Positions 1 to 63,610 of a DNA stretch of 64,000 nt are shown piece after piece (position 1 is the stretch's first letter; every line of letters starts with the position of its first letter). The notes below the pieces were generated by a model, which saw nothing but the letters and a program-made list of their open reading frames with translations, was not told the origin of the DNA and did no database searches. Origin of the DNA: Undaria pinnatifida (Eukaryota > Sar > Phaeophyceae > Laminariales > Alariaceae); NCBI GenBank assembly GCA_012845835.1, contig JABAKD010000019.1:6778994-6842993 (forward strand), in the 5' to 3' direction. Made by a program: the position numbers and the translations under genes.

Positions 1-122
1 ACGGACAGGTTGCGGACGATGCGCCCCACGAACGAGCCGGCGAGGCCCGACACCAATCGAGCGCCCCATCCAGGCTTCGCTCGGATTCCAGCCAACCGCG
101 CTTCTGCCTTGGCGAGCAACGC
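1..122 (-). CDS. VPS13: VPS13-like exon 4, cut by window edge
   Basis: Begins after a CAG acceptor (123-125) in phase 0. It encodes ALLAKAEARLAGIRAK, then SGLAGSFVGRIVRNLS, the helix and strand preceding the VHIRYED-type motif of VPS13. The exon continues beyond base 1. Confidence 0.72.
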
Positions 123-3100: not shown

Positions 3101-6100
3101 CTACGGTTAACTTTGCCGCCGTGGCCGTTGCTTGGCTGCCGTCGCTACGCGTTCGCTGTTTTTAGCTTTTTTAATCGTTTTTCTCTTTTATCTTGTTGCC
3201 GGATATCCCCGCTTTCCCCCTCAACTTTGGAGGCATCGCCCGCAGGACTTTGTTTGCTTCCATCGCAAACCCGCCCAAATCATAGTGGGACGGGCATTAA
3301 ATATTTTTTGCGGAAGGAAAGTATTTTGCCTAAGAACGTTTTTCGCAGACACGCTAACATGACATGGTACCGTACCGTATCATACGAGCTACAAGGGTCC
3401 CGTTCGGGATTGTGGTTGGCTTGAAATCCCAGGGGTGTTGCAAGTTGAAAAGGGGGAACATGGGCGTTCCTATGAGCGATACCAGGTACGATAACAATAT
3501 AAAAGCTCTTGAAAACCAGACAAAGAAGGGAGAGTAAGCTGGCAGCAAATAACACCGGCCAGCCCAAACGGGAGTATAGTCAGTTCTTATTCCTATAGGC
3601 TTCGTCCTGAGTGATATCGGCAGTAGGTAACCTGTGCTTATCGTGTTCAAGGATACTTCCCACATCTACCGCGAGCGCCCACACGGTCTACTACAGCAGC
3701 AACAATACCTATGAGTATCACAGCAGGAACGCAGTCGGACAGCAGCACCAGTACGAGAGTGCTGCAACTAGATACTTGTACGTACGCAGGACAATGATTC
3801 TGCCCGCCAATACTCAACACCCTTAGACACGGAGCAGGCAGCCATCGACAAATCTGCCGGCTAGGCTTGTGCTTCCCTGCCAAATACCACATGATACCCT
3901 TGTACCTGGTATCACATCAGCTTGTTTTTCCTGAGGTAGGCTTTTACCCCAGAGTGATTGGAGCATGTCCCGTGACCGCGGACGGCATTCGGGCAATGAG
4001 ATAATGTGAGAACAAAAACCAGCATATATGCCAGTACTATTTATAGGGCGTGTGGACTCAGCAGACGCTCGAATTTCTTCCACGCAATCTCGCTGTCTTT
4101 GTCTACCATACTGGGATACCTGGTACATTACTATCAGTAGATGTATGTTCTGGCCAACGCCTTTACACACCACCACGCACGCCCTCGAACTGGCAGACTG
4201 TGCGTTGGAACCCAACCGTCGACACATCAGCGGGCGCCCCGCTCTTAACAAATTGGTCCGTACATATGTGACGCCCATTTTCTCAAGATAAATACCTGGT
4301 AAGACCGTTGATGGAAGAAACGGTGCTCAGGGTCGGGTGCCATACTAAATCCCACACATACACATCATAGCCTGTGCTCAATGATGGTGACAAAATAAGA
4401 AGTCGAGCCTTGACGCCAAATAGACGTTTCCTATAGTTAGCAGCGGGCACCTTCTGTATACATGCGAGAATATTAGAAATTTGTATGTCGCTCGTGTGTT
4501 ACATACCAGGTATGCATATTTAACGAGTTTTCTAGTGTGAACGCGTGTTCTTTATACTAAACTGTTATTTCCACCTATTGAACACCAGCAGCACACCCAG
4601 CGTTCGCGCCGACTCATCGTCATGAAGAGAGACAAGCTCTGACCACGAACTACTGTACGACACAGACATCCATCGCAAGTGCACTAAGGAGACTTGATAA
4701 ATAATGTCAACCGTACCGCATACGAAAAGCGGAGCATACACATGCAAACGTATACGAACGTGTTTCAGGTACGTAATACCGTATAACACAGAAGTAACCC
4801 CCCCCCCTTATATAACACGCCCCCCCAATATGAGCACACCCGATGATACAGTTTTTCAAGTTCGTTTTTCGACCGTCACTTTATCACCCGGGGTACGTCG
4901 AATGCCACACCCCTTACGGAGGTGCGCCTGAAAACAGCATCAAACTCCAAGGTTGTAACACCACCTGGTGGATACCACTCATCCACATCACTGCTATTAC
5001 TACTCCTAACTGCGCCGCCGCCCCCGACAACCGGCGCCCGTAACGGTAATAGGTTTGTCGCCAATAACGGAACTCGTCCCGTGCCGTTGTACCGTTATCT
5101 TGAAATCAGCGCGCAATGCTACGGTGTGTTGTTGTGTGAGGTGTCGGCTAGCCAAAAATGTTTCATATGATTACGGCAGCAGGCCGTTTTTCGGCGGGGC
5201 AAGGCGCTCTGAGGTGCATTTTTCGGGAGGTTTGATATCACTGAATACTTATCTATGGTGAAACCTGTAACCAGGTCATACGGTGATTAGGGTTTCGGCA
5301 CCTGTTTTGTGAAGCGCAGCGTGAGCTAGAAAGCGTGATGCGCTGACGCGCCGCAGGCGTGTAGCCCCTCAAAGCGTCCCCCGGAGCCCGGAGGACCGCC
5401 GGAGGCAACCCCCCCCCGATACTTGCATTAATATAGCCCCGAAAAATACTTGAAAAAGTGCGTTTAGGCACCGAAAACACTCGTTTCGACCACAGCGAAA
5501 ACACAATGGTGCTTCATTTGGCTTCCCACCGCCACCGTCGGGAAGGTCACGCCCAACAGGTTTTTTACACGCCTTACAGCGCATGTTGCGCTTAACCGCA
5601 TTAAAATGCAACCCGAAAGTTGCGACAGCGTCACAGCCAACTAATGCCCCGCCGTTAACCCTTCTCCGGCATCGAAGCAAGGGGGGGAAATCATCTCCGG
5701 GTTCAGCGTGGGTGCTACCATCACCGGCATTGTTGGGTGGGAATGAAAGATCAAGCACATTTAGAACAAAACCTCTCACGTGTAGGCACAGCCCTTCTTA
5801 TTTTTATTTCCTTTTTTTGCATCCCATTTATTATCCTCGCACTCCTCTCGCCCTCCCTCCCAGTAGTAACTCAGGTCCGGGGTCACATAGCGGGCCCTTC
5901 TCCCCCCTTCCCACTACGGAACGTGCCTTCATTTTATCGCGACAAAAATTCAGCATTTACTTCCCTCGTCGACTCCCGTCGAATTGATATCACACCCTTG
6001 TTGCCGGTATCACCCCCTATGGTGTCAAACCCCTTGATATCACACCCTCTTGCTATCACGCCATCTGCAATCTGCCCGTAACGTGCCTTCATTTTATCGC

Positions 6101-9100
6101 GAGAAAAATTCAGCATTTACTTCCCTCGTCGACTCCCGTCGAATTGGTATCACACCCTTGTTGCCGGTATCACCCCCTATGGTGTCAAACCCCTTGATAT
6201 CACACCCTCTTGCTATCACGCCATCTGCAATCTGCCCGTGGGCCGTTAACGCTTCTTAACCATCACAAATACCGTCAGCGCACCCTTTCATTATCACCCC
6301 CACCCGAAATATAATATAATAGTTGGATTCGGTTGGAACCGACGCTGTAAAACATTATGCGTATATTGGGGTTGGCGTTGGTTGGCCATGACGCGTAAAA
6401 CATGCCAATCACTGCGTGAGCTAGACAACCAGGGTACCGTTTTTTTGTTTTCGTTTTGGCGGTCACGGTGATGGTTATCGAGTTGGATCATATTGTGCGG
6501 GGTGGAGCACCCAGACTTTGAACAAGGGGAATGATCGCATCGCGTAGTGCGAATAAGATAAAGCACCCACGAGGCAGTTACATAGTAACACCCAATGCTG
6601 TCTCTGGAGTGGCCACACCAGAAAACAAAGTAACCCATTGGCGCTGTCATCTATAAGCAAGAAAGTAGGCACAAGGTGCCGACGTCCGTCTTATGAACGG
6701 TTCTTGGAAGGATGCAGTTCACTCTTCATGCGACTCGTCGAACACCTCACGGCGCTTCGCGCTTGGTACAAGCAATGTCTGCCTGGTTGGTGAAAACCCC
6801 ACGTGCTCCGTCCCGGCATAGTAGGGATGCGAGGGTCTATGGTCATACGACTACGGCCATGCACAAAACTGAGTACACTTCGCCACCCGCCCGTTACATG
6901 GATGAATGTAATTGTACCAAAGCTAGAGTATGCAGGAGAAGTATGGGAGGGGAACGCGAAGTTCGTAAAACAACTGGAAACAGTGCAGGTGACAGCAGCT
7001 AAAAATATACTAGGATGCTCAAGTTCGACGAATAATACCGTTTTAAGAGCAGAGTTAGGAATCACCCACTAAAAATAACTAGAGACGTGAGAAAGTTGAA
7101 ATGGCAATACAAAGAAAAGGGTACGCCAGAAAAGAGGTTGCCAGCCATAGCTGATAGGGCTGTATGGGAAAAAATAACAAAAGGGCGGGCTGAAATAAGA
7201 TGGGATAACGTAGTCGAAAAAATATGGAAGGATTTAGGGGAGACCAAGAAAAGATACTGCTGTCTATAGAGAAGTTTGGCGGGTACAAGCCAGACGTAAA
7301 AAATAATAAAAAAAAGGGAGAAGCTAGCACAAATAAGGTGAAAGAGGAGAAGCACCTAGAGATATCCGGGGGGTTGAGGGAAGATATTGGAATAAAAACG
7401 TATTGGCACGGCCCAATGAACTACGCGAAAACGCTGAAACTGCGATTTCGTGTAGGGGACCCGGACCTACCAGAAAGAAGAAAGAGATATAACAGTAGTC
7501 GGGAGGAGGGCGTGGTTACACATAAAATATGTGCCCGTGTGGCACAACAATAGAGAGTAGGAATCACATAGAAGGACAATGTGAAATATACAAGGAGGAA
7601 CGGGATGTGTTAGAGGAGGAGATGAGCAATTAAGACGTATGTGGCATGGAAGAGTTTAGTAGACTAGAGAGTAGCGAGAAAACGATCGCTATCCTAGGAG
7701 ATAGATGATGGCCGCAGACGGCGGGGATAGGATAAGCAAACAGTTTTTATGTAATACCTGGTATATGGAAAAAGCACAATGAGCGCCAAAATGTTGGAGG
7801 TGTCTCTGTAAGGAGTAGGAACGGTGCTCCGTCTCGAAAGGGATGCGCGGTCAATGGTCAAATGACTAAGGCAAGAAACAAATGAGTACCCCCCCCCCCC
7901 CCCCCGCCGCCCCCGTTACGTGGTCGGTGAAAACCCGACATGTTCCGTCCCGTCATTGTACGAGGGATGCGAGGGCCTATGGCTATACGTCTACGGTCCT
8001 GCATGAATATCGAGTACACCCCCCCCCGTTACCACCCCCCCTAGCTGCGGGGCTCACGTGCATGTTACTTATCAGAGGATGCGTTAGATGGCACACCGCT
8101 CCACGACAGCACACCCGGTGATAATATTTTGAAAGGTGAAAAAAGTCATCACTGGGGTGTGCTTTCTGCCGTGTCATACGATAAACACACCAGTACACAA
8201 ACTTGATGCATTGCCTCGAAGCCAGCGGACTCTCGGCTGCTGCAGGTGCAGGGGAACTATTAATACTACAGCAGTACTACGAGGATCAACGCCCGAATGA
8301 GAAGGGTAGACCGTAACTGGTCCAAGTCAGGCGGAAGGCGCTGTTTTCTCATGGCCAGGGGTTTGTCAGTGGGTGAGCTCGCGCAAGTCCCACACTACCC
8401 GGAGGGTTGACTTCCCGGGGTGGCTATCTCCACCGCGCCTGATCCCGGGGATCAAGTCCTGTCGACATACTCACGCATCCGTATACACCGGCAGCTTGCG
8501 CTGCTGTAGTAACGGTGATCGCCGATAGGGACAACTCGCGCTTTTGCTACCACGGGAACTCAAGAATACGCCCGCTAGCGCTGGATTGCAAATACAATTG
8601 AGCCAAGCTGACGCACATGTATGACGAATACGAGGAAGTGTGGTGAGTTTAACCTTTATTTTTCCCGTCCATCGGAAGACAAATAAATAAATAATGATAA
8701 CGATAATAATACTGTTAATACTGCTACTCTGTAGATTGCTGTCGACTACCCCGCAGCCTACTCGTATAGTTTAAAAAATGAAAAATACATTTCAGCTGTG
8801 AGATCGACCAAAAATGATTTTTTGATCTCGTATGTACAGTACCTGACCACAAATACTGACCAAATCACCTTGCCTGTTGCATTCTGCAATGTGTATCTCT
8901 TTCTCATAATTAGCGATGTCAGAGCCCCACACCGGCACGGTAAAATCATGGTAACTACATGGTTTTTACCTATTTATTGAAATATTCTATCTTGCGGTCC
9001 ATGCACAATAACAAATTATGAAGCTATAACACGTTGTATACCACACCTAAAAATTGTGTTGTGTACCACACCTAACATCAAATCTGCTACGCCCCCTCTT

Positions 9101-15795: not shown

Positions 15796-15829
<34 letters not shown>

Positions 15830-18800: not shown

Positions 18801-21800
18801 GGCGCTTGACCCTCGTGCGGTTGGGTAACTGGCAAACTCGGTGTCACCGCAGCTTCGAGCAGATGGCGGCTTCGGTCGAGGCAATTGCGCCGCCCGATTA
18901 GGCCGTTTTTACGGCCGAGATCCGACTCGAAGACCTGGGCGGAGTTGACCGCAAGTCCGCCGGTATGCTTGTATATGACCAGGCATGTCATTTCCACCTT
19001 GCGATATTAGGGGTCTAAACCCCAGCTGCCACGATCGATTTGAGTAGGTGCCTAGAAAATCACCCAAGGCATGCGCAAAACGGCTCCGGCTCTCGCTTGT
19101 GCCGACAGTCGACTCACGCCAAAGGAACTCGGTTTTGTATCCCGATGCCTACTCAGACAGGCAGTACGGTGCTGGCTTTGCTGATACAGCAGTAGGCCCT
19201 GTGCTCTTTGGAAGAGCTCAGCGAGATAAAGACAGAACACAGTCTTATGCTTCTGCTGCCGGAGCTGAAAAAAAATATCACAAGAAACAATTTTACGAAA
19301 AATGAAGGAAACGTGTACGAGTACGATACGAGCATGTTTTTCTACAGCAGCGAACAAACCGGGGCACCACACCCAGCCGGGGTAGCCGCACCGGGCGCCG
19401 GGGCCACAGCGTTCCACGGCGCGAATATGACGCCCGCCAAGTGCCTGACCTCTCCTCGCCTCTTACTAATATAAGAACCCTCCACTCTTCCTACTCATGA
19501 CGAGTCTCGATCCTCGACTATCGATTCTCGACCCTCAACTTTCTCGCGCAGTTTCGTTTCGGGGTGAACAAACCGAAGCGCGGCCGTCGCGCGTGCCGCG
19601 ACGACGGCATTCCACGGCACAATCATGCCACCACTGGGCGCCCTGCTCATAGTGATTCTCGATCCTCGATCCTCGGTCTTCGATTTTCGATCCTCGGTTC
19701 TCGAATCTCGATTATCCATCCTACTCGCGTCCCCTACGAGTACTCATCACGATTATCAATTTTCTCGCGCAGGATCGTTTCGGGGTGAACAAACCTGGGC
19801 ACCACCCTGCCGGGGCGGCCGTAGCGGGTGCGGCGGCGACGGTGTTCCATGACGCGATCATGACACCAATGGATGTCGTCAAGCAGCGCTTGCAGCTGGG
19901 TTATCACAAGGGGATGCTCGACTGCGTGTTGACCATTCGACGAACAGAAGGCGCACAGGTGGGTGGTGTGTTGCGCCTGGTTTGTATGGCTTGCCTTTTT
20001 TTTGTTTTTCGCGTTCTTTGTTTTCGTGTATTGAACGTGTGCTTCCTTGTTTGGGTGTGCTGGCTTGCTTGCCTGGGTGTGTTTTGCTGCGTGTGTTTTG
20101 CTGCGTGTGTTTTGCATGCTTTCGTGTGTTTCTTTGCGTGTGCTTTGCTGGCATGTGCTTGTTTGCTTGCATTTGCTCCGGTGTGTGTTTCGCGTGTGTT
20201 TTGCTTGCTTGGTTGCTAGAAGTCTACCGACCGCGTTGCCACAGGTGTTTTACCGTAGCTCCCCGCCGGCCCTGGTCATTGGCTACCCCGACGTGCGCCA
20301 TTACGACTATGCGGGGGGATGAGTCGAAGCATCCAAGTATCTAACACCTACTGTAAATTATGCTCAACCCCTCCTCCCCTCTCCCCACGTCCATCCCCCC
20401 TCCCCCCTCCCCCTCACCCCCCCTTCTCGACCTTTTCCACCCTTCCTGCTGCCCCTCCAACCCCCCCCCCCCTTCGCACGAGGGGAATGATCGCATCACG
20501 TAGTGTGAATATGCTAAGGCACCCACGAGGCAGTTACATAGTAATGCCCATTGCTGTCTCTGGAGTGGCCACACCTGAAAACAAAGTAGCCCATTGGCGC
20601 TGTCATCCATAAGCAAGAAGGTAGGCACAAGGTGCCGACGTTCGTCTTACGAGCGGTTCTTGTAAAGATGCAGTTCGCCCTTCATGCGACTCGCCGAGCA
20701 CCTCACGGCGCTTCGCGCTTGGTGCAAGCAATGTCTGCCTGGTTGGTGAGAACCCGACGTGCTCCGTTCCGGCATAGTAGGGATGCGGAGGTCTATGGTC
20801 ATACGACTACGGCTATGCACAAACTGAGTGCACCCCCCCCTCCCCTCTCCACCCCTGAACCTCGATATCCTTGTGCCCCCCAGGCGTTTTACCGTAGCTT
20901 CCCCACTACCCTGTTCATGAACATCCCCTACGGATGCGTGATGGTGGCGGTCAACGAGAGCCTCAAGCAGGCCATGCGACCGGCCGGCGACTACGACACA
21001 CGAACGTACCTCTTGGCGGGGAGTGGGGCGGGGGCCGTCGCCGCAGTCGCGACTAATCCGCTAGACGTTGTTAAGACGCGGTTGCAGACGCAAGCCTTAA
21101 GGGCGTCCCACGAAGGCGTCCCGTCTTTCGCCTTTTCTGGAGGAGCTTCAGCAGCAGCGGCGGCGGGAGGAGGGGGGGGGCGTGTAGTGGGAGCGGGAGG
21201 AGGGGGGGATGGGGGGAAGGCGGTAAGGGGGGGGCTGGGACTACCGCAGTTCTTGCGGGCAGGAGGCGTGGGCGGCGCGGCGGCGGGCGCGGGCGCGGCG
21301 CAACACCCCCACGGGTTTTCGTCCGGCTTTGGGCCGGTGCTTGGGGCGGGGCAGGGGACGGGGCTTCACAGCGCGGCGGCACGATGCGCGACGGGGCGGT
21401 GCCGTTTGGAGAAGCCTGTTGTGACCCTGCAGTACCAAGGATTGCTAGATGCGGTGAGAGGAGAAGGAAGTTTCTTGTTGGGGGGGCAGGGGCAGTACCA
21501 GGATCTGCTAGATGCGGTAAGAAAAGAAGTGTTTGTTTCTTTTGTGAGGGAGACAGTGCCAGGGCCTGCCGGATGGGATGCGTAAGAGGAGAAGGGAAGA
21601 GGGGGGGGGGGGGGGGGGGGGATGACATGCAGTGCCAGGGGCAGCTTGATGCGCCAAGAAGGGGAATCTTTGGGGGGGTCATTTGAGAACGCATGTAGGG
21701 GAACGACCCTTGCCCAACAACTGATTTTGTTTTGGCAACATGCTACGACGGAGGTGCACCCATTATTTATTTATTTTCCAACGCTCCTGACCACTTGAGG

Positions 21801-25381: not shown

Positions 25382-25436
<55 letters not shown>

Positions 25437-38600: not shown

Positions 38601-38809
38601 GCCAACAACATCCAACGCTAGCACACAGCTTTCTATGCCGACAACAATAACAACAGCACAACAACGTTGACCCCTATTCTACGACACCAGCAACAACAGC
38701 ATTAACACCAGCAACAACACCACCCTCCTGCTACGACAAACCCGCGCAAGCCCCAAGGAGCAACAACAACAATAACAACAACAACGACGACAACAACCAC
38801 AACAACAGC

Positions 38810-38855
<46 letters not shown>

Positions 38856-41800
38856 GCACCGCTCTGCTGCCACAAACCTTCGCAAGTCCGAGAGCGAGGA
38901 CAGGCCCTCCCCCTGCCCCTTCCACCCATCCTTATCACCGGCCAAAACTTCCGCCACCAGGGTAGACGGAGCTAGCGCTGACAGCGCCAAAAGCGCGCGA
39001 AGCCTCCACCGGAACTTTACCCTGCCGTTCACAGCACCGGACACAAAGCAGTGGTACGGAAGGAGGGGACGCGGGGGAAGGATGGGAACGCGGCACGGGA
39101 GGGACGGGGGGCGGGGGGAGCCGGGGCGGGGGGGGGGGGGGAGGCGGGGCGGGGGGGGGGGGGGGGGGGGGGACGACGACAGGGTTAGCCGTGTCAAAAA
39201 AACAATATTCTACCAGCTGGTCTACTGTTTAGTTTACCAATAGGTCCATGACATTGGTCGATTCACGACTCACTGATGTTAATAGTATGTGACGGGCGAC
39301 ATGATTCATAAACCCATACGATATGCTCTTCATACCTGCCCGCTCAGCCACCCTTGCAACAGTTCTTTGGCGATGGCCACCAGGAACGACACCCGCGACT
39401 TGAGGTTCATGAAAATGATTTAATCGCCCATACTAGCGTTTCCGTCTTCCTATTTAACCCCTTTAGAGCCCCAAAATATGTCCCTATACTTACCCCTAGT
39501 AGTTTATCCCTGAATTACGGGTGCAAGAAATCATTCCTTATATTGTCATACATGGTGTGACAATATGAATCTATGCCACGAATGAAGTACGCCCCTAGCC
39601 TATCAATAGCCTCCATTATGAAAAATGAAATGTACCAGGTAGTGATCATGTTAAAATGCGATGGGTGACACGTTAGTTTTCACAAAGAAAAAGGCATGTT
39701 CTTTGTCTTCTCACCTCCTCATCCTGCCATCCTTGCGGATGTCTTTCGCGATGCCCAGCAGCACCGATACCCGCGACTTGAGGTCCATGAACACGATAGA
39801 GTCGCACACGCTAGCGTTTGCGTCCTCGTCCTCCTCTTCGTCAGAAAAGGTAACCGTCAAAACAAACGCCGCCTGCAAAGCCAGGGTCGCATCTTCCACC
39901 ATCCGTTCCTAAAAAACAGCAATGCACGCAACGTAACTATTTGTTCGTGTTTTCATGTTAAGAAGTTTTCATTATGTTGCGTTCTCAACCAGTACCAGGC
40001 ATGTCTTTACTTCGTACTTGTGTATGGCCCTTACTCTGATACGTTCCTCGTGTTTATTATATTTATTTCCCATGTTTTTACGATTGTGGGTGTTTACGTT
40101 TTTTGTTTTTAATGTTTCTACGTTGTTGTTATGTTGCAGAAATGAAACCGCTAAAACGAATGACGCCTGCAAGGCCAGGGTAGCGACTCCCATATATAAT
40201 CCTGAAAAAACAAAAAAAGGCAAAAAAAAGGGCAACACATAGGACAAAAAAAGGCAAAAAAGGACAGCAACGGTCTCGTTGGTTTGGTGTTATGTTTTTT
40301 CTGTTTTACTTTTCTGTTTTCTGTTTGGCATGTACGTTTCATGTATTTTATGTTCTTCAGTTTTCTGCTTCTTTTTTTCTGTTTTCCATGTTTTTATGTT
40401 TCACGTGTTGGTTGTGGTGGTGTTGGTGTTGGTGTTGGTTGTTGTTGCTACTTCTATTATCCTAATATACCGGTACATGTTACAGTTGGCGTTGGTGTTG
40501 AAGTTGGTGTTGCAGCTATTGTTTCACACACACTCGCACAAAACACCAACAACTCCAAACAAACAAAAAAGATAAAAGACAAACGTCATTCACCCCTTAC
40601 CTCTCTCGCGTCCTTCACGAACACCGACTCCCGCCCCTCGCTCCCCCTCACGCCTCCACCAACAAATAGCCCCTCCCCTGCCGTCATCCCCTCACCCCTC
40701 CCGCCTCCTCCTCCCCCACTCTTAGGCTGACAGATCCATCCCTTCGCGAGCCGAAGGATAATCGTCTCCACATCATGGGGGTCAATGCCCCTCTGGTCAG
40801 CGACCGACCTAGCAGCCCTGAGCGCGCGGGAGGCTTTCTGGCGAAACGTAGCCATATTGCCTCCCGAAAATGTTTTAGGCATACCATGCTCGACCCTCAC
40901 ACGCCAAGAAACAGTGGTACCAACGCCAGTGTTGGCGGTGGTGGTGGTAGGGGAGTTGGAGGAGGTAAACGGGGCGGTACGGGAGTTGGTAGAGGGTGGG
41001 GAAAGGGGGGGCGAGAGGGCGTCTTCGGCTGCGCTCTCCGCCGCAAACAGAAGGATCTTCGTCAGGAGTTCCTTCGAGCTGTGGCGGCGGCCGGGGGCGG
41101 GGCGTGGGGGGGGGGGGGAAGGAGAAAAATAGAGGGAGGATGGGGCGATATGGGGTTAGGGGAGGGGGAAGAGGAGGAGGAAGAGGGGAGACGAGGGGGG
41201 AGGGGTGAGGGAGGATGTGGAGGGGGCGGGGGGAGAAGAAGCAGGGAGCATCGCGGGCGGGGGGGGCGGGGGCGAGGGCGGGGGACGCGGGGGACGCGGG
41301 GGGGGGGGTAAGAATGAAAGCGAGGCGGAGAGAGAGGGAGAGGGAGCGATCAATGGTTACACAACGCGAAAAAAGAGCAAACTGTTATACTGCGTTCACG
41401 CGAACCGGAAATAAAAAACAGCTCCGAGAAGAAGTCGGTACTCACATAAAACACTACTACTATTACTACCGCCACGATAACTCACTACTACCACCATCAC
41501 CACTACTACTACTAACTACTACTGCTAGACACACCTGGAGGAGAAGAATGGGAGCAATTTTTCCGCCATGTCCACTCCGACGCAATCCTTCGCGGTCATG
41601 TGGTGCTCCAGTCGCAACGCGCGCCGCTCTAGCCCCTCCACCACATCTCCGCCTTCTGCCACACCACCATGACCATGTGCCCCAGCCTGATCACCGTCAC
41701 CATCTCCGACATCGTCACCTTCACCATCATTGTCATTGTTGTTGTCGGCGCGGGACAGGGGCAGAAGAGTCACGGACAGCGACTCTCCCTGGCAAAGACA

Positions 41801-47800: not shown

Positions 47801-50800
47801 ACCAGGGCACCCCGCGAAACGCGTTTTTTCGTACCTGGAACTGCCCGACAGCAGAGTACCATACACGAACGAAAGACGCTCGTAGCCCCAGCCCCCGCTT
47901 TCCCTACCCCCCTACACCCAGTGACCGACACATAGCGGAAACACAATGGCGTGTTTCTAACTTGGGAGCATTCCCAAGGCGTCCTGGGGGGGGGGGGGGG
48001 GGAGCAGGCACAGGCACAGGCACTCCGCAAAGAGCGCGTTTTCTCACACCTGGCAGCTGTCTGACAGCAGTATCCCGTATATGAAGGAGAGACGCTCGTA
48101 GTCTCGTTCGTCGATCATGCCAGGCGTCTCCAGCATGTGCCGAAGCATCCTCGCCAGCAAGATCCCGTGCACTGACGGCAGCACCCGTGTGATGTTCTCC
48201 TGCAAACCATGGAAACAATCCAAAAAGGGAAAATTGGAAATTGAAAATCGAATAAGAAGAGAAAAAAACAAACAACTTCATAAATCGAAAAGTGAAAAAT
48301 GAAAAATGAAACTTTCGAAAAGTACAAACATCCAAAAAACAAAGTAGCAATACATTATAAATCGGAAAATCGGAAATTGAAAATGCACAGTCCAAAAATC
48401 CAAAAACAGAAATCGATCGCACAAACCAGCGTGAACCAAAAACAAAGGCCTTCTCCCCACCTCCACCAACCCCAACCTCTCCTGCCACCCAACGGAAAAT
48501 CGTGGGGGGACACGCACGGCCGGGCAAGCCGATTATCAACAGATCACACAAGGAACCCCCCCCGCCCTTCCCCCTAACCCCTCTCTCCACTCCCGCCACC
48601 AACCCACCTGACAACATGTCGTGAGGGTACACGCACGGTCGCCCAAGTTGATTGTCGGCGTAGAGCAGACAACGAAACACCCCTCCCCCACCCACCAACA
48701 ACCACGATCGCAAAACCCCAACCCCAACCCTAACCGCTACCCCGCCACCCACCCACCCACCTGGTAGGACACGTCGTGAGGGGACACGCACGGCCGCGCG
48801 AGCTGGTTGTCGACGAATAGAAGGCAAGGAAACGCCTCCCCCACCCCGTAACGCTCGCAAAACTCCATGGTCAGGGCTAGGTCGCAGCCTGACCTCTCCA
48901 ACAACGCAGGAACGAGGGACTTCTGGTATTCCCCCGGCACCTCAGACCTGTCAGTACGGGAGAAGCTGGTGCAGTGGGGTGGGGTGGGATGGGCTAGGGT
49001 GGGATGGGGTGTGGTATGGTGGGCTAGGGTGGGATGGGGTGTGGTGTGGTGGGGTCGGGTGGGAGGTGGGTGCGTTGAGAGTACGGTGCTGACGATCATC
49101 ATGACAACCACGAAATCGGAAAAAATATAAACATCCAATCCGCGCCACATCCACTAGTATCGAAGGGGATGCCAGGATAGTAAGCAAATGTCACTGCAAC
49201 CACTACCACCACCACTACCACTACCACCACCAGCAACACCATTATCACGATCAACGCCACCATGGACCTCATCACCATCAACACCAGCACTAGCACCAGC
49301 ACGAGCATCAGCACCAAACCTCTACACACCCCTCACCCTCTATTGTCGAAGGGGATACCAAGGCTAGTGAGCACATGCCACCAATGAGCGTCCCGCTCCA
49401 CCTCCATGCACTGGTGCAGAAGATCGTGGTCATCCCAAGCACGGGCAGCGTACATACCCACCCGCGCCAGTATTCGCAGCCTTGTCAGCGTCAAAAAGAG
49501 GCGGGATGGAGACATGACAGAGGGGGGGGCGGGGGGGGGGGGGGGGGATGGGGCAAACGACGCATGTACAAGCGTTCGCAGTGCCTTCCAGCGTCATCGG
49601 TGTCGAGTAGCAGAATAGCTAGTCTATCAGAACAGGCAGCCTAACTTAGGCTGCAGGCAAGCAGTTATTAACAGTTTCGTTTGCTGCAACTAAACACAGT
49701 CACTGCTCGAGCAGCAGAACAGTTAATGCTAACAGCATAGTCAGCCAATAAAAAAAACACACACACGTCGGACAGATCACTGATCCCCACCTGATGATCT
49801 AGATCTTTCCGGGAAGATCTGTATGATGTAGCTCATGTTGCCGGTTGGGAGCCGTACGATCTGCATAATCTTGCACGTGTTTCCTGGGTTGGATATGTAG
49901 TCTACATATACAGGCCCTGCACAGCATTTCATAACGGAAGCTATAGGATCTACTGTAGATGATATAGATGATCTGTCTACTGTAGTTCGTGATCTGCGCG
50001 TGGTGTGAAATAGTCAGCCTATCAGAGTAGATAACCTAGCCTGCGTAAATCAGTGCGACATCATCCCTCGAATAGCGGCATAGTTCGTCTAACAGGATAG
50101 TTCACCAATAGATAGCTTAGCTTAGCACCTTCCGTAGTCGTCGCTGGAGTAGCGGATGGTGCGACGGAAGGCATCGAACGCCTGCCTTGTCGGCAGAGCC
50201 AGCATGTAACCGACAGCCAACGGACAGTCGATATGGTTAAACTCCAGAACCTGAAAAATCAAAAGGGGGCGATTAAAGGTGGAGGATGGATTAGGGGGGG
50301 GGGGGGGGGGGGGGATTGAAAACGAAGCAACACCAGACTCCAAGCGGTGTAAGGGAAAGGAGTTGGGGGGGAGGGGGGTACTAATTTCATGCATGACCGT
50401 AATCGTACGACCATAGATCCTCGCCTCCCCATAATATCGGGATGGAGCCCGAAATAGTAAAGAGAAAGCAGCACCGGACACCAAGCGACATATTGCATAT
50501 TAGTTCTAGCCTCGCATGGATAGGCATCGCATTACAATCACATCCAAGTCAAACCAAAAACTCAATCCAACCAAATCACTCAACTGAACCCAACTGAACC
50601 GACCCAAACCCAAACACCTAGCCCAAACCAAATCGCACGGACCTTATCCGTTAGTCCGGAAAAGGAGTCACCCAGCGAATCAACAGCACATAAAGGAGGA
50701 AGCGCCATCCCCGCAACCACCCTGAGACACAGCTGCTGTGCGCCCATACCCTGTAGGAACGCCAGCAGCGGGGAAGTCGCGTTCTCCAACCCCTTCTCCC

Positions 50801-53800
50801 ACCTCGAAGACAGCAACGCCTCCGTTGAGTCTGCAACTCCCGAGGAGGTGAGAACGGTGAGTTAACGGAATTATAATTAACCCACGCAGAAACAGCGTTA
50901 TTTTATTTAGCACGGTGTTTGCGAACTGCCAACTTTAGTTGGGTAGACGTGGAGTTGGGTAAGAAAACCTTCCATATTTTTAATAGTATTGAAACCGTCG
51001 AACGTCACAATCCAAGGCCAACCAATCACGAAAAATCAGCGAAAAAATACAGTAAGCTAGAAATACATTTTCTTGCCATCGTTTTATTCTAAACTAATTT
51101 TCTCGTGCGTTCGAATACCTTAGGTTGTGATGCTCGTCGGTTCCAGCACTATTTTTACATATTTTCCATCCCAAGCATAGTTTGGAAATCGCAAACGCCT
51201 TATTATGTAGGCGGTCGACTCGTACCTGAAGCAGGGGCTGCCGCGATTGCGTCCCCGCTAACAAGTGCTGCTCTGAGGCGCATTTCCTGCCTAACGAAGA
51301 GCGACACCAGCTTCAACGCCTCCTCAAGGGGAAGAACTCGCCCGTCCCCGGGGTACCACTGATTCCCAGCGTGCACGGCGAGGGGGGACACAAAAAATGA
51401 GGTATGGCGTTATCTCCTTAAGATACCAACACAATATTTCACCCCAACACTACGGGTGAGCATCGCAGTAGCATAACTTTATCGATACGGGGAACGCAGC
51501 GATAGCATTACTAGTGGCACACTGGTAAGGTGAACACAACAGTACAATACATAATGGCCATAATGGGTACTCAGCAGCACTTTGAGTAATTATAGCCATA
51601 TTCGTAGAGTCAACACAGCACTAGCACAATAGTACCAGGTATAATTTAGTGTGATATCATAGGGGGTCGAGAAAATCACATATATGAATATTAAAAACTG
51701 CTCCTCAAGTACGTACCTCGTAAAGGCCGGCAAGTGAATCTGCGTCGGAGTCTCCATCTGATCCCGACAGAAGAGAAGAGCGCGACGACATCCGGCCAGC
51801 ATCCTGGGACTTAGATGTGGACGAAAACTCGGGCGTCATGAGAGCCTCAAGCTCCTCCCCCCCCTCACACCTGGTACACCGCAGGAGTACCGCAGGATTT
51901 TTCGAGTGTCCCAGATGCGACAACGTGGGAAACAATGGCATCCACGGAATCCCGAAAGATTTTTGGATTGTCCCAGACGCGAGAGTGGCGGGGAAGGGAG
52001 GGGGCGGCACGTACGAACAAAAGGGGCGTCGGCGGGGCAGGGGGGGTGGGGGTGGGGGGGGTAATCCGCGACTGAGGTATTGTTGGGACGCGCGCTAAGA
52101 CAGTGGCAAAAAACTTTTGCCACTTTTTTTTCGGAATGAGGGGACTCCTCAACCCAAATTCGTCGGAATGTCACTTATTGTTGCGCGGTTTTATACATTA
52201 TATACCTTGGGCGCGGGATTGTTCATTGGGTTACCATTTCAGTTTGCTCACAAAAAAAAAAAAACGTGGGTGCGGAACAGGGCTTCCGAAGCGAGTAAGC
52301 CTCAGAAATAAATTGGTACACCTTTACAGTAGCACGCGTCTCAGCGTGTGGTTGCAGTGGTCAAATGAGACGCGTCCTATGATAGAGGAAGCAGTTTCGT
52401 CTGAACCGGTTTTTGGATGACAGGGGCTTCTTGACCCCAAATCGTCGAAATTTCGTCATGTTATGGCACGATTTTCGCTGTGTACCTAGGCCATGCGATT
52501 ATCCATAGGGGATCATAGCACGAGCATTTTTCCCGAAATATTTTTTCAGAGAGGCCTAAAGCTCCTCCGGTGAAGAGCCCAAGAAAAAAATGGTTCACCG
52601 CCACCTTTCAGCCAGTGGTGATGCTAGCGGCGCTATGGGGATGCTAGCTCCTTGTCAATAATCGTACGATGCGCACCCTCGGTGTGTCCTGGGTTGGTGT
52701 TTGTTGTGCAGAAACGGCGGTTTCGAAGCGAAACACAATAACAGAAAAAGGACTGCAGCGACGGCCTGAATATTGAAAAACAAAAAAATGGGCTTCGTAT
52801 TTCAAACGATACTGGACAGTTTGTCGGTTGAGGGCAGTTGAGGAGGGACTCCCGTTAGTCAGCAGCATTCTGATCAAAATTTCAACGATATTAGGCAATT
52901 CTTCAGTTGAGGAGGCCATCAGTCCGCAACCTTCTGGCCATGAAGTGCTGAGATCCCTTATCGTTGCACACGCACCAAAACATTTTGTCATCACGCTCGC
53001 ACGCACGCACATACCTCCTTAGCACCGCAGCGACAGCCTCCGATCCCTGCAGGAGGTCCATCGTCAGAGGAAGCTCCGGCCCAGCGCACAGCGCTGCGCT
53101 CTGCCTGAGCCCCCTCACCGACTGAGCCATGGCCTGCACAACAAGAACAACATCACGGTAGCGACTGACTTCAAAATATGATGTCGCGAATGGCAGCAGG
53201 GTACATGAGAAGGATAGCCGTTGCTAGGACCTCGCGCCGTAGGAGATTTGTTCGTAACTATCATGTCATCAACTAGTGTCCGCGCTATTAATAGTGGTCG
53301 ACGGTCGTAATAGCCATCTGGAAAAGGGTACGTCAACAACAACGACAACGACAGCAACAACTCGAGGCTACCCGACATGAAAAACTAATTTCCCACACCT
53401 GAAACAAGCCCACGTTCAAAGGCCATGCATGCATCGCACCTTTTTTTCCCATGTATCGCGTCACTAAGCTCATGAGTATATACTTTCGATGGAGCGAAGC
53501 ATCCTTTTTTCCGCACATCGCGTCACTGCAGTAGTATGGTACAGTAGGGGTCCACCAGTAAGGCGGTGATGTAACAGAGCAACATGACCGCCTTATAGAG
53601 GGAAGCCGCCTGATTCATTCCACGTTATGAGTGCAACTCCCCAGTCTCGCCAACCGATTTCGACCCACTTGTATCGGGATACCACCTTACTCAGACTGCA
53701 TTTTTCATTATTCTAGTTTTCCATCGAGCGAAATATCATTTGTTTTTCCACGTCCAACGTCAATGCTCAATATCCTTGTTTTTCGATCTTGCGAACTAAT

Positions 53801-56800
53801 ATATACTTCGAAGTATATTACTTTTACGCACCTGGCGCACGGCTGTCCTAGCCTTCGCACCCGCTTGACCATCCGCCCCTAAAGAGCCGGAGTGCGCCTG
53901 GTTCGCGACAAACCTGTTTTCAGTTTTAGGTTTTATCCAATCAACGATCGGTGGCGGATTTTGTTAGTTCTTATACAATCAACGATCGGTTCCGGCTTTT
54001 GATACCTGGTAGATGTTATCCAATCCCCGATTGGGGGCGCATCCCGTCTTCAAGGCCTTCCTCCGCACCTTTACCTGACATTCCAATACAGAAATGTAAA
54101 CACGCTAACCAAAAGCACACATTTAGATGGACAAGGCCTTAGACGTGTCCCTCAGGGCCAAATCGAAGCGGCCGACAAGCCAACGAGCAACAATAAAGAA
54201 TAAAACTATGCATGCATACACGCAAAACGCCCTCGCTAACACGCGAAAACAATGAACACAAGAGAACTCCGCACCACAACAGAACAAAACCGAAATACTC
54301 CGTCCCGGCATCGTAGAGCTGCAAGGGCCTATGGTCTTAAAACTACCGCGATGCATGAAATGAACACACGCCCGTCCCTCATCGTCCTCCTCCCGCATAA
54401 AACCTCCTTCCGCTCACGACGCGTGCTACGATGTCGGTATTAAGGTGTACAACCTTTTGGCATTTTTTTTTTGTGAATGATGTTCCTTGACCCAAATTCG
54501 TCAGAATGCCATTCACTTTATGCAATATCTACTTGTTTATATACCTAGGCCATGGATTTGTTCATGGGTTTGCATTTTCGGTTTACTCAAAATCAGTTTT
54601 TGCCTCATTTTGCCTCAGAAGGCAAAAATAAATAGAGCTCTGCAATATGTACTTGGTACTTGTTTGTGTACCTAGGCCATGGATTTGCTCATGGGTTTGC
54701 ATTTTCAGTTTACTCAAAATCACTTTTTGCCTCATTTTGCCTCAGAAGGCAAAAAAAAGAGATCCTCAGGTGAAGAGCCGCAGAACCGAGCTGGAACATA
54801 TCTACCCTAGCACGTGTCTCACGTGGATAAGGCCTTAGCTGTGTCCCTCAAAGCCAGGGCGGCAGCTTTCTCGTCCATCGTCGCCTGGTCGCGGAACAGC
54901 ATGTGGCAGAGACCGATCGCCTCGGGCACCTTGCCTCTGCTAGCGGCCTCATTGGCTAGATGGGATATCACGCTAGGCCACGCCACCCCCAGCAGCTCGG
55001 AAAGCCGCCTCGCCCTGCACAAAAAAAAAAAATGGTTTGATTTTTACGGTGCGGGGGCGGGGGCGGGGGGGGGGTTGGGGGGGGGGTAGGCGGTCGTGAT
55101 ATTTGAGTTTGATTTCGGTGGCGGAGGTGCCATGTGCGGGATGTGAGCGAAGGGGAGGGGGGATAGGGGTCGGACGAGGGGCGCGAGTGTGAGGGGGGGG
55201 TAGGCGGGGGAGGAGAGGATGGGAGGGGGCGGGCGCGTATTGTTATAGTTTGATTTCGTCGAAGGAGGTGGCGGAAAACCTCTTGAGATCCGAACACAGG
55301 GTTTTAGGGGGAAATCCCTTGAGAACAAAGTAGAAACTGTTTTGCAGTAGTAAAAGGGAAAAGGGATGTGGGGGGAGGGGGCGGGGAGAAAGGAGAGGCG
55401 GAAAAGTGGAAGATTGAAATTGATAAATCTGGAGTATCTGGAGCGGTATTGGATCTTACCGATATGGAAGGCGTGTTGGTTCGGTGATATGTACGTAGTT
55501 TATCCAGCAAGCACGTGTAAGGGTGAACTTGGGCACGACAGGTACTAGAAAAGCAAAGCGTACGGCAGAGTACGGGAAGCTGGTTGGTAACCGACTGGCA
55601 GAAACTCCTGCTGCTGCGAGGATTACGGGTGAACGGGTTAGCAGAAAGTTTAGGGAGAATATTTATATTGATTTTGGTTCCGAAACAACCATAACCCGAG
55701 GACAGCTGAAAACAGCAACAACTGCCGCCAAAGCCTCCGAGGCTTCCAGAATCTCCAACAAAAAGCCTGAAGCGTCCCTCCTCACCTGTGCAAAAGTCGG
55801 GGAAGCGCGTGCATGGTCGCCTTTCGAGCCCCTCTGGTAGCACCGCCGGCCTTCTTAGCACCGCCCTTCTTAGCACCAAGTGGGGCCGGCGCAACACGCA
55901 TGGGCTCACGCTCAAGCCCACGACCACTCGCACCCCGCCCACCTACCGCCTTCTGAAAAAACAGCAAAACCCCACGGTAGGGAAAATGATTCAGTTAAGG
56001 CGTACCAGCGTGTAATCCTCATGCTATTGCATGCTCGTTTCGCGTACTTGGGTGTTTTCAACAGCATAAAAAGCAGCATCATTGAGTGAATTTTCGCAAG
56101 GATAAACCGGCATAACTGATAAAACGTCGTATTACTAGCAACTTCTTTTTGTGTTTAGTCTCCCGCCCACCTGCCGCCTTCTAAAAGAAACGACACCCCC
56201 CCGCCGCGGAAAGGATAAATCATAACCGAGGGGGTGCATTACATAGCGTTCGCGAAACAGCAGACACGGTACACCGATCCATCCTTGAAATACGAAGTAC
56301 AACTATTGATGACGCAGTGGTATATCCATTTTTAAGACCATCCATCTTAAGACTTTCCGGTGGATAAGACCAGGCTTATCCCTTTAAAAAAGACTACTTG
56401 GAGTTAATACGGGACCATTTTTTGCAGTAGGAAAACACAAAAACTAACACGGAAACAAGCAATGGCCCGTCCCGAGGGGGTCTTAACGGACTGGGTATAC
56501 CCCTGTAGTTTGTTTCGTGTTTTCGATCTACCACTCGCGCCTCTCCCACCTGCCGCCTTCTGAAAAACAACGAAACCCAGACCACCATGGTAGAAAAGTT
56601 TTCAACGAAAACGAGGCGTTGACGGGTACTACGATGGGGGTATAGCACATTTTGGTCAAAATATTCACGGCCTGCAGATCATCGATCCCCATTTGATGAT
56701 CTAGATATTTCAGGGAAGATCTGTAGGGTTTAGCTCATGTTGCCGGGTGGGAGCCGTACCATCTGCATGATCTAGCACATGTTTCCTGGGTTGGACGCGT

Positions 56801-59800
56801 ACTCGATAGACTCAGATCCTGCACAACATCTTATAACGACAGCTGTAGGATCTACTGGAGATGATCTAGATCACGACCTGGCCGAGGCGTGAAACATTCT
56901 AACAAGGATGAGGGAGCCACACCACGCTAGGGTTGCGGCAGACGTTCCTAAGCTCCTGACATGAGGAGTGAGGAGCTCAATATCTCACCCGACACATGGC
57001 TTTCGAAGACAGACATTCGTTCGCGCAACCCGGCCAACAGTTCTATGCGTCAGTCCTAATGGCAAACATACCCGCAAAATATCATAATAACCGATAGTTT
57101 CCCACTTGAGGAGGACAACCGGTCAGGTATACCTTTTTTTGTCTCAAAACGTGTACGCCCTACCGTGAGATGATTCGAGGCTCCGCAAGCGAGGAACCCC
57201 ACCAAAACCGTTGGAATGGCTCGCGCTGCGGTAAAGGTTGTACTTTGAGTGCCAATATTTTTCTGAAAGGATGGGCTGCTCAACGAAGAGACCACCCAAT
57301 ATCTTGCCATTCCAATTTACATTCTGTGAGTATGCTAGGTGTGCACGTTGTGCATGGGAACGTTCCTCGGATTGAGCGAACAGTGTTTCTCAAGGTCGAG
57401 TTGTGGGGGAGGTTTTGGAGCTCCTCGAATGGGGAGCTTGACAAGAAATTGAGCTGTACCTCCACCGTACCATGCGCAGAATGCTCTATCGTAGCACGCC
57501 TCAGGCGCAGTCCTAAAAGGGGTCAATAACGGCCCTCAGTTGCACCTGGTCTCCGTGGAGATGCTCTTCCAGCCCCACCAGGCCCTCCCTCATGATGCTC
57601 CAGCACGCGTGACTGTGCGGTCGGCCGAGTGTCTCGAGCGACGTGAACACGCCGAACTCCGTCTGCAACGCAGAGATCCGCCGAAGGTCGTTCGCCATGC
57701 CAACCAGGTCCCTGTTAGGCCCGCCCCCGACATATAAGAAGCAAGCATAACACGCCTTATTATAGGGCCGTCATTAGCCACATGGTACAAATGGCAAAAA
57801 AAATGAAAATTTCGGCAACTTGTTTTTGTCAAGCCTGATCCCTCCCCCACCCACCCACATGCGAGGCGTTAAGAGCGCCTAACAAGTGGTACTTAATACG
57901 GTGCAGCCCCCCCTTCGCGCGACTCGCCGAACACTTCACGGCGCTTCGAGCTTGGTGCACGCAATGTTTGCCTGTCGTCGGTGACAACCCGGTATGCTCC
58001 GTCCCGTCATGGTAGCGATGCGAGTGTCTAAAGTCCTACGGAGTACGACCATGCATAATACAATGATTATTCCCCCCCCCCCCCGCGTTCCCCTCGTCCG
58101 TACTCCCCCATACTGTAGGACTGTAGGCTCACACCACGCAATGAATAAACACACTTGGAAGGCAAAAATAACATGAAGCACCCAGAGCATGCTTACCCGG
58201 CAGTCTCCTGGCCTCCGCGCTGCTGGCCCCGCCTCTCCCTTAAAAAGCCCACCACGGCAGAAGCGGCAGCGGCAACCAAAACCGCCTCCTCCGCCTCAGA
58301 CCCGGGATCAAGAACCACAGCATCCCCTCTGCTGCTGCCCTCTTCATTATCCGTGGAAAACTTGCACCCCCAGAGCTATATCGAAAAAAACATGGGCACA
58401 CGTGTTTCGGGAAGGAACAAAAAGAGAGTGAAAAATACGTGCACACGCGTTTTAGGAAGGAAAAAAAAAACGAAATTCGGGCACACGCCTTTTGGGAAAT
58501 AAAGGGGGGGCGTGCCAGGGCAAAGGTGTACTCCTAGTTCAGCGTAGAGTCAACCTCGACGTACATGCCGTTGGTCGGGGAAGCTGTGACTGCCGTTCAT
58601 AAGATTTACTCGGGTACATGCAGTTGGTTGGGATTGCGTCCATGCACCTGCGGAACAGTGGCGTTCTACGTACGGGTATCCTCAAAGTACATACCTGGTA
58701 CGTGTGATATGTCCATAGGACTCGTTTCAGTGGAATCTACCGCCCTTGAGGTACTCGTAAGGAATCCATGTTTTCGAGACACACTAGGGCGTTTAGCGAT
58801 TTCCACAATTCTGTTGGGTAGGAAAACGTTTATTAATAGTATTGAAACCGACGAATGTCATAACCCAAGGCAAATCAAACCAACGAACAAATTACTTTAG
58901 AAAAAAAAACGAAAGGAAAACATATTTCTAACCTAATGTTTCGTTGATTTTTTGTAGGTTGAGTTCGGTTGGCCTTGGATTGTAACGTTCGACGGTTTCA
59001 ATACTATTAGTAGTATTAAATGTTTTCCTACCCAACTCCTGCCCAACTATAAGTTTGCCGTTCGCAAACACCCTAATGCACCCACGTTCTAGAGACAAAC
59101 TGTTTGAAGCTAGTGTGGGATCATTATTGCACCAGGTAAAGGGTCTGTAGGGTTATCCCTTTCCCAACTCCTACAATAATCCTATTAATAGTCTAACCCC
59201 AAGTGGTTTGTGCTCAAAACGGGAGTGCGGCGTTAAAAGGGGCCAATATGGGCATCACCAGCAACTCACTCGTCCGGGGTTGAGTCCGGCGTTGACGGCG
59301 TCGAGCTCCAGGTCTTCTAACAAGCGGACCAGGTACAGAAGGACCTCCTCCGCCACGCGCCTTGTCGGGACACGCAGAGCCAAGATCAGCAAGGGAACGA
59401 ACACAAGGAGGTAATTTAGGGGGCGCTTGCCACCGCAGGAAGGCATCAAAAGCAGTAAGACTCCTCGTTTGAGTAGCTCTGTTGTTGTTGTTGTTGTTAA
59501 TGTTGTTGTTGTTGCTGTTGTTGTTGTTGCTGTTGTGGTTGTTGTTGTGGTTGTTGTTGGTGGTGGTGTTGCGTTCTCACACAAACTCTTGTAAAAAAAT
59601 CTGGAGTCCGCCGTTGCACAAAGGTACTGGAGCCGCAAGAAGATCCGAAAACCCATAATGAAATCAAAATTCGGCCGGGAAACACTACGCTTTCCCGCCT
59701 AAAACACACGAGGCGAAGACGGCGCACAAGTGAAATGAAATTAATGTGCAAACTGAACTACACAAACTACAGCTCTATGCTTACACACAAACTGACTTTT

Positions 59801-62800
59801 GACAAGGAAAAAAAAAACACTTGTGTGCGACCCAATGACGCATGCAACAGCGGTAGAGGTGTACCATATCTTTACATAGGCTCCTGATTTAACGCCTTTA
59901 CAACTGGCAACTCGTTTTTGGAGACAAGTTTACTAGGAATTAGTATAGAAAGGGCTTTTTGGGGCTCTGAACGGGTTAAAGCTCCATACCCAACCCAAAA
60001 ACTGATTTGGAGAAAATAATAGTTCCGCTCTATGAACAGACCCATGGGTTACTAACAGGTGCACGAACAAAAAATAATGCAGCCAAAAAACAAAATGGCC
60101 AATTTCCGAGGATTTTGGGCTAAGGAGCCCCGTCATTCACAAATAATTTAGCCAAAAAAATTGCTACGCCTATCGTGTCCAATGAACAATCGGCGCGCGC
60201 TACGATGCATGTCGTACTTTTGGGCTGAAACACTGTCTGAATGACGGGGAGCTCCTTAACCCACAATCGTCCAAATTTCATTCATTTTTTCGCAGCTTGC
60301 TTCGTTGCATCTCAAGCAGCCCGTGGGATTCATTGCTCATCGGAGAGAAAAAATGTTCTTCTCCAAATCAGATTGTGGGTGAGGTATGAGGTATAACAGA
60401 GATCCTCAGGCGAGGAGTCCCGGATGAAAAAAAAAGGTGTACCTCTGTCTTAGCATGCGGTAATTTTCCAAGGCCTAGACGTATAAGGCACAATTTTTGG
60501 CAAAACACGAATCGTATTCCGATGATGTTGAGTATTTCTTCACATGGGGAGCCCCGACAGATAGGAATATCTTGTTCAAAAGTGTGACCCCTACCGAAGC
60601 CGGTGCCCTAAGCCACCACGCCCTCACAAAAACAAAAAAATCAATCCAAGGAAGCTATCATCCATTGCAAGAAAGCACGCACCAGGCGCGGAAGCCCCGC
60701 CCCACAAGCGGTTCATAGCAGTATGCGACTCACCCTTCATGCTACTCGCCGAAAACCTCACGGCACTTCGCGCTTCGTGAACGTCATGTCTGCGTGGTCG
60801 TGAAAACCCGCCGAGCTACAATCCAGCATTGTAGGGATGCAAAGATCTATGGTCATATGACTGCGGCTATGCATGAAATGAGAACACGCTCCGCCCCTCA
60901 TAACAAAAACGCCTGGCAGAACATACCTCGAGTCTATGGCAGGCAACTGCCCCAGCACGTGCGCCACCCGCACACGATGAGTCGCCAGATCCGCAGCAAG
61001 CTTAGCACCACCACCATCACCGCCACTAGCACCGCCATCACCACCACCCCCAACGCCCCCTGCCCGAGCGTCCAAAGCGCCCCCAGACGTAGAAACTCCT
61101 TCGGGTAACGCCTGTTCGACACGGGATCCCTCGCCCCGAGACCTTGCTACCTGGGAGGCATTACCACCATTACCGGTACCGGCTTCTGGGAAGGCGGGTG
61201 CGGCGGTGGAGGCAACCCTCATTGGGTAAGACCCCGCTAAATTCTGTAGGAACTCCACGTAGACGCTCCGGTCGTTGAGATGGCTGTAAGCTTGGGCCAC
61301 CTAACAAAACATATTAAGTGCATGATTACGTACCGGTGCGTATCAGCATTGTGTCTGTCACCCGACAACGGGCCGCATGAGTTTCGACGTCGATAACTCA
61401 AAAGCATTGCCCGAAAAAAAACAAGAAAACCAAGAGAGGCAACCAAAAAAAAACGTTTGCACATCAAAGTATGCTGTAACGAGCACAGCGCCGCACGGCA
61501 CAGCAGTATATACAACACAATGCAGCACACACTTCCACTGGACTGCAAATAAAGCTACACTGTGTGAGGTACGCGATTTAAGAGTCCTCTGGAAGGGGCC
61601 AGCGTTACCGCCCTTATCTCCGTACTGCTCTTATCTCAGACTGGGTATCTTATATGCTGAACACTGTGATCGGGAGGCCACCTTCGGGGCAACCCCAGCT
61701 GCATTATCGGTGTGAACAAAAAAGACTGCACACCGACTTAGGCAACTGCTATCTTGCAAGTCGGCCCAAACCCAACCCGATCCCAACCACAACCCTAACC
61801 GTAACCCCAACCCTTTGGGGGGTTCGAGGTCGGCAGGGGCGGTCCCGCGGCTCCGCCGAGTGTTTCGTACGCGTTTTTCCAAAACTAGTCAGCGGGCCGA
61901 AAGGCGGGCCTCAACCAATCAGACACAGGTGTGCAGTCATTTTTTTTCACACCAACGCAAATAGGTGCCGTTTTCTGGGCCTCTCTTTTCAGGGGCTCAG
62001 AGAACCATATTTGCTTAATTTGCTTCTGAGTGAGATGCAGAGCCGCTCGCGCGAGTAGCGGTGAACTCGGTAGCGATAAATAGGCGAATCCTCACTACCG
62101 TATCCTCGGCCATGACATGTTAGATAAGGCGTGACAAACATGTACCAGGCAGGCTTTAGTACAGGCGTCACCGGGTGTGACAAGCCGGTTTGACCGCTCT
62201 TAAGACCGTTTTCTCTTATCTTGGACGCTCTTAAATCGGGTATCCCACTCCATACCCTTCGAGATGAGGCAAACGATGCAGCAAAACAACGAAGCACCAA
62301 ATATTTTTACCAGGTACCTGGTATAAGGTTTCGCTTGATCATGAAAATAGGTTATTCGTGCAACGCTTCTCGCGGTTATGCGGTTTAACCCTTGTTCAAC
62401 TCCGAAATTATCGCAGTCAAAGTCCGAGCGCTTTTCCCCTACATCGGGAGTGCGATGCTTAAAGCGTTGAACTCGAAAAAAGCCCCCAAGGATTGCACTG
62501 TAATACTGTTGGAACGGCAATTACACCAACATATTCGCTAGCAGAACGGATACAAGCGTGAACGCACCTGGAGTCCGTCGTCAAGGGCAGTCGAACAATG
62601 GACCTGAGCGAGCACATGCCTGCGACAAGGGTGAGCGAGCACAAACGAAAGGCCACGGAAGGCGTTAGGGGGTAGGGCCAACGCAAACGCTAACGCTAAC
62701 ACTGCCGCTGCCGCTACCGTTAATAACGCTAACCTCAACGTCAACGCTAATATTAACGCTGACTCGAACGCCAACCCTGATCCTAGAGAAAACGTAAACG

Positions 62801-63610: not shown

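Follow-up and report, generated by a model that had tools for sequence, protein, structure and literature searches.

Exon-edge echoes in Undaria pinnatifida as the probable outcome of neutral local duplication and selection on exons

The window analysed here, a 64-kb stretch of the Undaria pinnatifida genome, contains a mitoferrin-like gene on the plus strand, recognised by Pfam Mito_carr matches ('mitoferrin' being the name used in the preliminary description), and KNTC1 on the minus strand, recognised by ARM_KNTC1_3rd (E 2.2e-12) with three exon matches. Exon ends of both genes recur with adjoining intron in the flanking intron, and these local copies are referred to below as echoes. The exons and echoes of the mitoferrin-like gene are as follows.

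19773..19958, plus strand: mitoferrin-like (mitochondrial carrier) exon 2 (Pfam Mito_carr, E 2e-9; gene model)
19535..19637, plus strand: exon 2 acceptor echo, a copy of 19756-19872 located 221 bp upstream (self-BLAST, E 9e-14)
19352..19432 (ends approximate), plus strand: second exon 2 acceptor echo, 435 bp upstream (self-BLAST, E 6e-10)
20884..21144, plus strand: mitoferrin-like exon 3, 3′ end uncertain (Mito_carr, E 2.4e-14)
20239..20279 (ends approximate), plus strand: exon 3 acceptor echo, 639 bp upstream (E 7e-3; alignment score 42)

An apparent series of donor echoes lies 3′ of exon 3, where the gene finder apparently accepted an echo as the donor of this exon. The KNTC1 exons with echoes are listed next; the best case is the exon ending at 48794, whose last 53 exon bases and first 45 intron bases align 153 bp downstream with the GT retained.

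48794..48940, minus strand: KNTC1 exon (ARM_KNTC1_3rd, weak alone; Pfam matches, E 0.04-2)
48596..48693 (ends approximate), minus strand: donor echo of the 48794 exon, CAG/GTGGGT kept (alignment score 91)
49342..49485, minus strand: KNTC1 exon, Pfam-verified (ARM_KNTC1_3rd)
49144..49194 (ends approximate), minus strand: donor echo belonging to the 49342 exon, at a distance of 187 bp downstream (alignment score 44)
39715..39908, minus strand: predicted KNTC1 exon with echoes of its 5′ edge and 3′ part (gene model only)
40146..40212 (ends approximate), minus strand: acceptor echo belonging to the 39908 exon, at a distance of 294 bp upstream (alignment score 45)
39364..39449, minus strand: duplicate of 39742-39827, a segment from the 3′ part of the 39715..39908 exon that ends 27 bp before the exon edge (self-BLAST, E 8e-15)
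54823..54934, minus strand: predicted KNTC1 exon, approximately the last 33 bases of which are repeated about 696 bp downstream (alignment score 41)

KNTC1 was searched for first on the plus strand of the window, which gave no match. The Rod_C profile had a single match in the whole genome, under the cut-off and on a different contig, and a PDB search with the minus-strand frames of 43001-57999 returned no match, while ARM_KNTC1_3rd did match KNTC1. The exon numbers of the gene are uncertain because a weak KNTC1-type match (E 2.4) was found past the window end, beyond which the gene may run. The gene finder, when retrained on the window, drifted into simple repeats, and the KNTC1 exon calls are therefore weak; they were counted in the window tally and kept out of the control-locus statistics. 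A Pfam search of the window gave no match for VPS13-like pieces, and ARAGORN found no tRNA genes in it.

The window also carries non-exonic duplications and dispersed repeats. A dispersed family is represented on both strands by ten or more copies or fragments, and several copies have a common end and a variable other end, as in a truncated retroelement. A further element of about 290 bp occurs in three copies, two of which (over 44886-45104 and 58813-59036) match themselves when reverse-complemented, which is foldback- or MITE-like. These features are given below.

5917..6239, no strand assigned: tandem duplication of recent origin outside exons, with a 160-bp unit and 98% identity, an example of the general process (self-comparison)
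54530..54762, no strand assigned: direct duplication in DNA not predicted as exonic, with 127-bp spacing and 93% identity (self-BLAST)
6297-6878, 7921-8019, 20472-20833, 31352-31505, 35492-35856, 44575-44723, 47180-47764, 54298-54369, 57902-58061 and 60654-60887, both strands: copies of the dispersed family (self-BLAST)
44857-45143, 50914-51208 and 58779-59076: the element of about 290 bp (self-BLAST)
12601-12918, 18137-18444 and 36647-36950: dispersed repeat of about 310 bp, three copies 80-90% identical

The window tally comprised 50 edges of 25 exons, seven of which were Pfam-supported (four mitoferrin, three KNTC1) and the other 18 called by the gene finder only. At a score of at least 40, an echo on the right side, namely downstream of a donor or upstream of an acceptor, was found at 7/50 edges, one of these seven being a TTG simple repeat (at 38877); a wrong-side match was found at one edge, a poly-C run (at 50262), and an inverted match at one edge. 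The clearest echoes were those of the mitoferrin exon 2 acceptor (two echoes) and exon 3 acceptor, and those of the KNTC1 donors at 48794, 49342 and 54823 and the acceptor at 39908. The exon-edge echoes in the window are real. The preliminary description had listed thirteen or more cases of exon ends recurring in the flanking intron; the direct orientation and the placement of donor echoes downstream and acceptor echoes upstream held, and several mitoferrin and KNTC1 cases align clearly, but the full list was not confirmed, as neither exon 3 of the VPS13-like gene nor the greater share of the KNTC1 exon numbers could be anchored.

The wider genome was sampled from 511 Mb on 68 contigs, with 25 control stretches outside the window, of which 20 (including one adjoining pair) had matches to mitochondrial carriers and five to kinesins; gene family, rather than repeat content, was the basis of the choice. 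A simple gene finder was trained on Pfam-matched exons and recovered 66/66 training matches (window included). In the echo test, 80-base segments centred on exon edges were compared with 1.5 kb on either side at a score cut-off of 46. One doubtful exon, the second predicted at control stretch L014 and lacking Pfam support, was counted in the predicted-edge echo tests and in the donor and acceptor cover, and was left out of the distance-cover, dinucleotide and mismatch analyses and of all verified counts. As a separate observation from the same genome, EsV-1-7 cysteine motifs were very numerous (2159 first-look candidates; 150 scored and 150/150 over the cut-off), with many of the 150 scored motifs on one contig (C30). 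The EsV-1-7 family is described as expanded in brown algae (PMC7457493).

Echoes at the control loci were one-sided. Among the verified exons of the 25 stretches, 10/106 edges had a right-side echo, with no wrong-side and no inverted one (10 versus 0; sign test 0.001); by class, 7/53 donors had an echo downstream and none upstream, and 3/53 acceptors had one upstream and none downstream. Among all predicted exons, right-side echoes were found at 17/151 edges, wrong-side ones at 2/151 and inverted ones at 0/151, divided into 11/75 donors downstream with one upstream, and 6/76 acceptors upstream with one downstream. Equal numbers of echoes on the two sides of exons, the outcome named beforehand as contrary to the idea, did not occur, and the one-sidedness of echoes is real. 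The word 'always' in the original claim holds for the verified exons but is too strong for the full set of predicted ones.

Local duplication extended well beyond exon edges. In the window and the 25 stretches together, 200 direct and 19 inverted local pairs were found (direct pairs merged, inverted ones unmerged), and 51/200 direct pairs were contiguous tandems, a share that was 5/14 at an identity of at least 92%. When pairs were also at least 60 bp long, 5/8 were contiguous tandems (units of 118, 65, 160, 72 and 97 bp) and 2/8 were nearly so; the six other pairs at this identity were short, non-contiguous matches of 25-37 bp. Non-contiguous pairs may represent tandems eroded by divergence, or copies that landed a short distance away. 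The unit was 63-193 bp in 39/42 contiguous arrays and 283, 394 and 579 bp in the remainder (window plus L002-L026; spacings below 60 bp uncounted). The upper edge of unit length at around 195 bp may stem from the detection method or from a limit set by nucleosome size. For the eight contiguous pairs of at least 88% identity, the match exceeded the unit by 0-4 bp in five and by 10 bp in one, fell short of it by 2 bp in one, and one was a three-copy array. Some arrays were iterated. At L014 a single donor region was repeated at +194, +394 and +596, followed by a fragment at +744; at L019 copies stood at +283 and +565 and fragments at +870 and +1078. This agrees with the earlier proposal that local direct duplication, in places iterated, operates genome-wide and lengthens introns. 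Slippage at C/G runs, proposed as its cause, was not borne out, as homopolymer runs lay near 77/760 copy ends (10.1%) and near 336/3495 random points (9.6%).

Detectable local copies were an equal load in introns and flanking DNA, covering 8.46% of 81,675 bp of the former and 8.77% of 112,104 bp of the latter, and the cover per side in non-coding DNA was 4.4-5.1% for direct copies. Cover on the right side of 148 exon edges was 8.6% at 0-20 bp, 7.0% at 20-60 bp and 7.1% at 60-100 bp, and farther out it went from 7.4% (100-200 bp) to 6.3% (200-300 bp) and 4.6% (300-800 bp); on the wrong side it was 0-0.3% up to 60 bp from the edge and 5-7% between 100 and 300 bp.

It has to be considered whether exon–intron junctions, chiefly donors, are hot spots at which duplication begins near splice sites, for example through transcription- or splicing-linked breaks. 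The raw frequency of right-side echoes at predicted edges exceeds that of random non-coding 80-mers from the control stretches (3,306 points), of which 5.8% had a direct echo per side and 0.8-1.1% an inverted one, and donors exceed acceptors at a score of 40 (12/75 versus 7/76 predicted edges). Donor cover was 10/74 at the edge, with the doubtful L014 exon included, versus 5-7/74 at +100 to +280 bp and a background of 4.4% (about 3.1-fold), whereas acceptors had no peak (5/76 versus 5.1%, about 1.3-fold). Relative to random points, the ratio was 1.94 for all predicted edges (95% locus bootstrap 1.06-2.94), but 1.62 for verified edges with an interval that includes 1 (0.77-2.69), so that the expectation of more matches at exon edges than at random positions holds for the former and is modest and not significant for the latter. 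An early test on 92 edges, with the window included and earlier gene models, had given an apparent 2-3-fold excess, which shrank with verified exons and the kinesin loci. The nearby intron at 100-300 bp is a fairer comparison for edges than random non-coding DNA, and here the cover ratio was 1.25 (0.61-2.40; 148 edges, one doubtful exon dropped); moreover, some predicted exons, such as the second at L014, may be echoes themselves. In simulations of uniform tandem duplication with exon-breaking events removed, the edge/background ratio was 0.56-1.19 (seven settings, two without exon constraint), and the observed echo count was nominally high against the simulated expectation: at edge factors of 0.8, 1.0 and 1.2 the nominal P, which ignores clustering, was 0.03, 0.09 and 0.21 for verified edges and 0.001, 0.009 and 0.04 for predicted edges. 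Donor cover exceeds every simulated value, and a mild donor hot spot is therefore possible in the 25 stretches sampled. Taken as a whole, the edge/intron comparison does not show that duplication is aimed at exon–intron junctions, despite the higher donor value, and we regard junction hot spots as the source of the echoes as quite unlikely. A broader form, in which splice junctions and chiefly donors are mild hot spots, perhaps via transcription-linked breaks, with intron growth in this lineage proceeding outward from the exon edges, is likewise unlikely.

Another reading is that selection for alternative splicing keeps the echoes as duplicated exons or reserve splice sites. When an echo drifts and its exon is held, constrained exon sites differ by one branch, and third codon positions and intron by approximately two. 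For the 13 junction echoes outside the window (best match per edge, at least 25 exon bases, low-complexity matches such as that at L018 excluded), the mismatch was 76/575 (0.132) at codon positions 1+2, 75/289 (0.260) at position 3 and 366/1386 (0.264) in the intron part, with a ratio of intron part to positions 1+2 of 2.0 (1.5-2.8); the seven echoes of verified exons gave 0.136, 0.253 and 0.251, respectively. The lower mismatch at positions 1+2 than at position 3 could be taken for coding constraint on the echoes, yet a value half that of the intron part is what one free copy predicts. Four window echoes were without this contrast (positions 1+2, 26/152 versus intron part, 13/87), with few intron sites. 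The GT or AG was kept in 6/11 echoes, and in-frame stop codons were few (2/276 codons); however, 6.9 retained dinucleotides are expected from identity by chance, gap totals were not a multiple of three in 5/13 echo exon parts, and none of the 13 echo spans covered a whole predicted exon. The echoes thus differ from tandem exon duplications, which have coding constraint and keep both splice sites. The decoy splice sites once attributed to the echoes do exist as dinucleotides, but persist only at the neutral rate. The divergence fits neutral decay, with change at constrained sites seemingly confined to one of the two copies, and gives no sign that echoes are maintained; selection for spare exons is a very improbable account. 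Finally, the matches could reflect chance, low-complexity or transposable-element similarity, since the two simple-repeat matches and the dispersed families of the window do exist. Against this, inverted matches were absent from all 151 predicted edges at a score of at least 40 (one appeared at 36), direct copies covered about nine times as much non-coding DNA as inverted ones (approximately 0.5% per side), and the L014:2900-3250 array, the sole array searched genome-wide (E 0.001), matched only its own locus, in which it also differs from a dispersed or introner-like element. Such similarity is scarcely credible as a general explanation.

We consider it likely that the echoes result from neutral, short, local direct duplication acting genome-wide, with the polarity imposed by purifying selection on exons. 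Short stretches, mostly 60-200 bp among contiguous arrays, would be copied locally and directly throughout non-coding DNA, sometimes repeatedly, and the copies indeed proved to be local, direct and present in all sampled non-coding classes. By analogy with rice, their origin is probably error-prone repair of staggered breaks. Where the copied stretch happened to span an exon–intron junction, the event would be kept only if the original exon stayed in use and the extra copy fell in the intron, leaving donor echoes downstream and acceptor echoes upstream, and wrong-side events would presumably be purged. Because a junction-spanning copy survives only with its extra copy in the intron, the one-sidedness observed at verified exons needs no special mechanism. 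The extra copy would then drift neutrally and the real exon be held by selection, and the decay observed is neutral.

An exon edge and its echo could serve as an internal clock, with one constrained and one free copy: each event would be dated by how far its constrained sites have diverged, and the intron part copied along with them offers a cross-check. In the sampled non-coding DNA, 8.5-8.8% of bases fall in a detectable local duplicate pair. Caution is also needed in annotation, as echoes resemble coding exons and may be mistaken for them. At L014:3324-3378, a gene-finder exon is situated within an echo array, where echoes may fool annotation.

No description of exon-edge echoes in brown algae was found in the literature, judged by titles and abstract openings; they are a clean example of an already known kind of process. 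The closest parallel is in rice, in which duplications of 10-1000 bp, tandem or partly tandem, and non-tandem copies of sequence within 200 bp were ascribed to patch-mediated double-strand-break repair of staggered breaks (Vaughn and Bennetzen 2014, as summarised in PMC7407515). As in that summary, the copies here are local, direct (200 direct versus 19 inverted pairs, as in the short-tandem-duplication class) and both tandem and nearby non-tandem; the organism is different, however, and the events here are mostly old and recognised from divergence within one genome rather than from polymorphism. Intron gain by tandem duplication, as outlined in PMC4974935, likewise involves a duplication that reaches across exon and intron and copies splice signals, but in the present case the extra copy makes an existing intron longer, and no new intron is seen. 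Pervasive local duplication in non-coding DNA is also shared with fly regulatory DNA, in which, according to PMC3188502, the similarity is of shorter range (about 50 bp) and located in regulatory modules.
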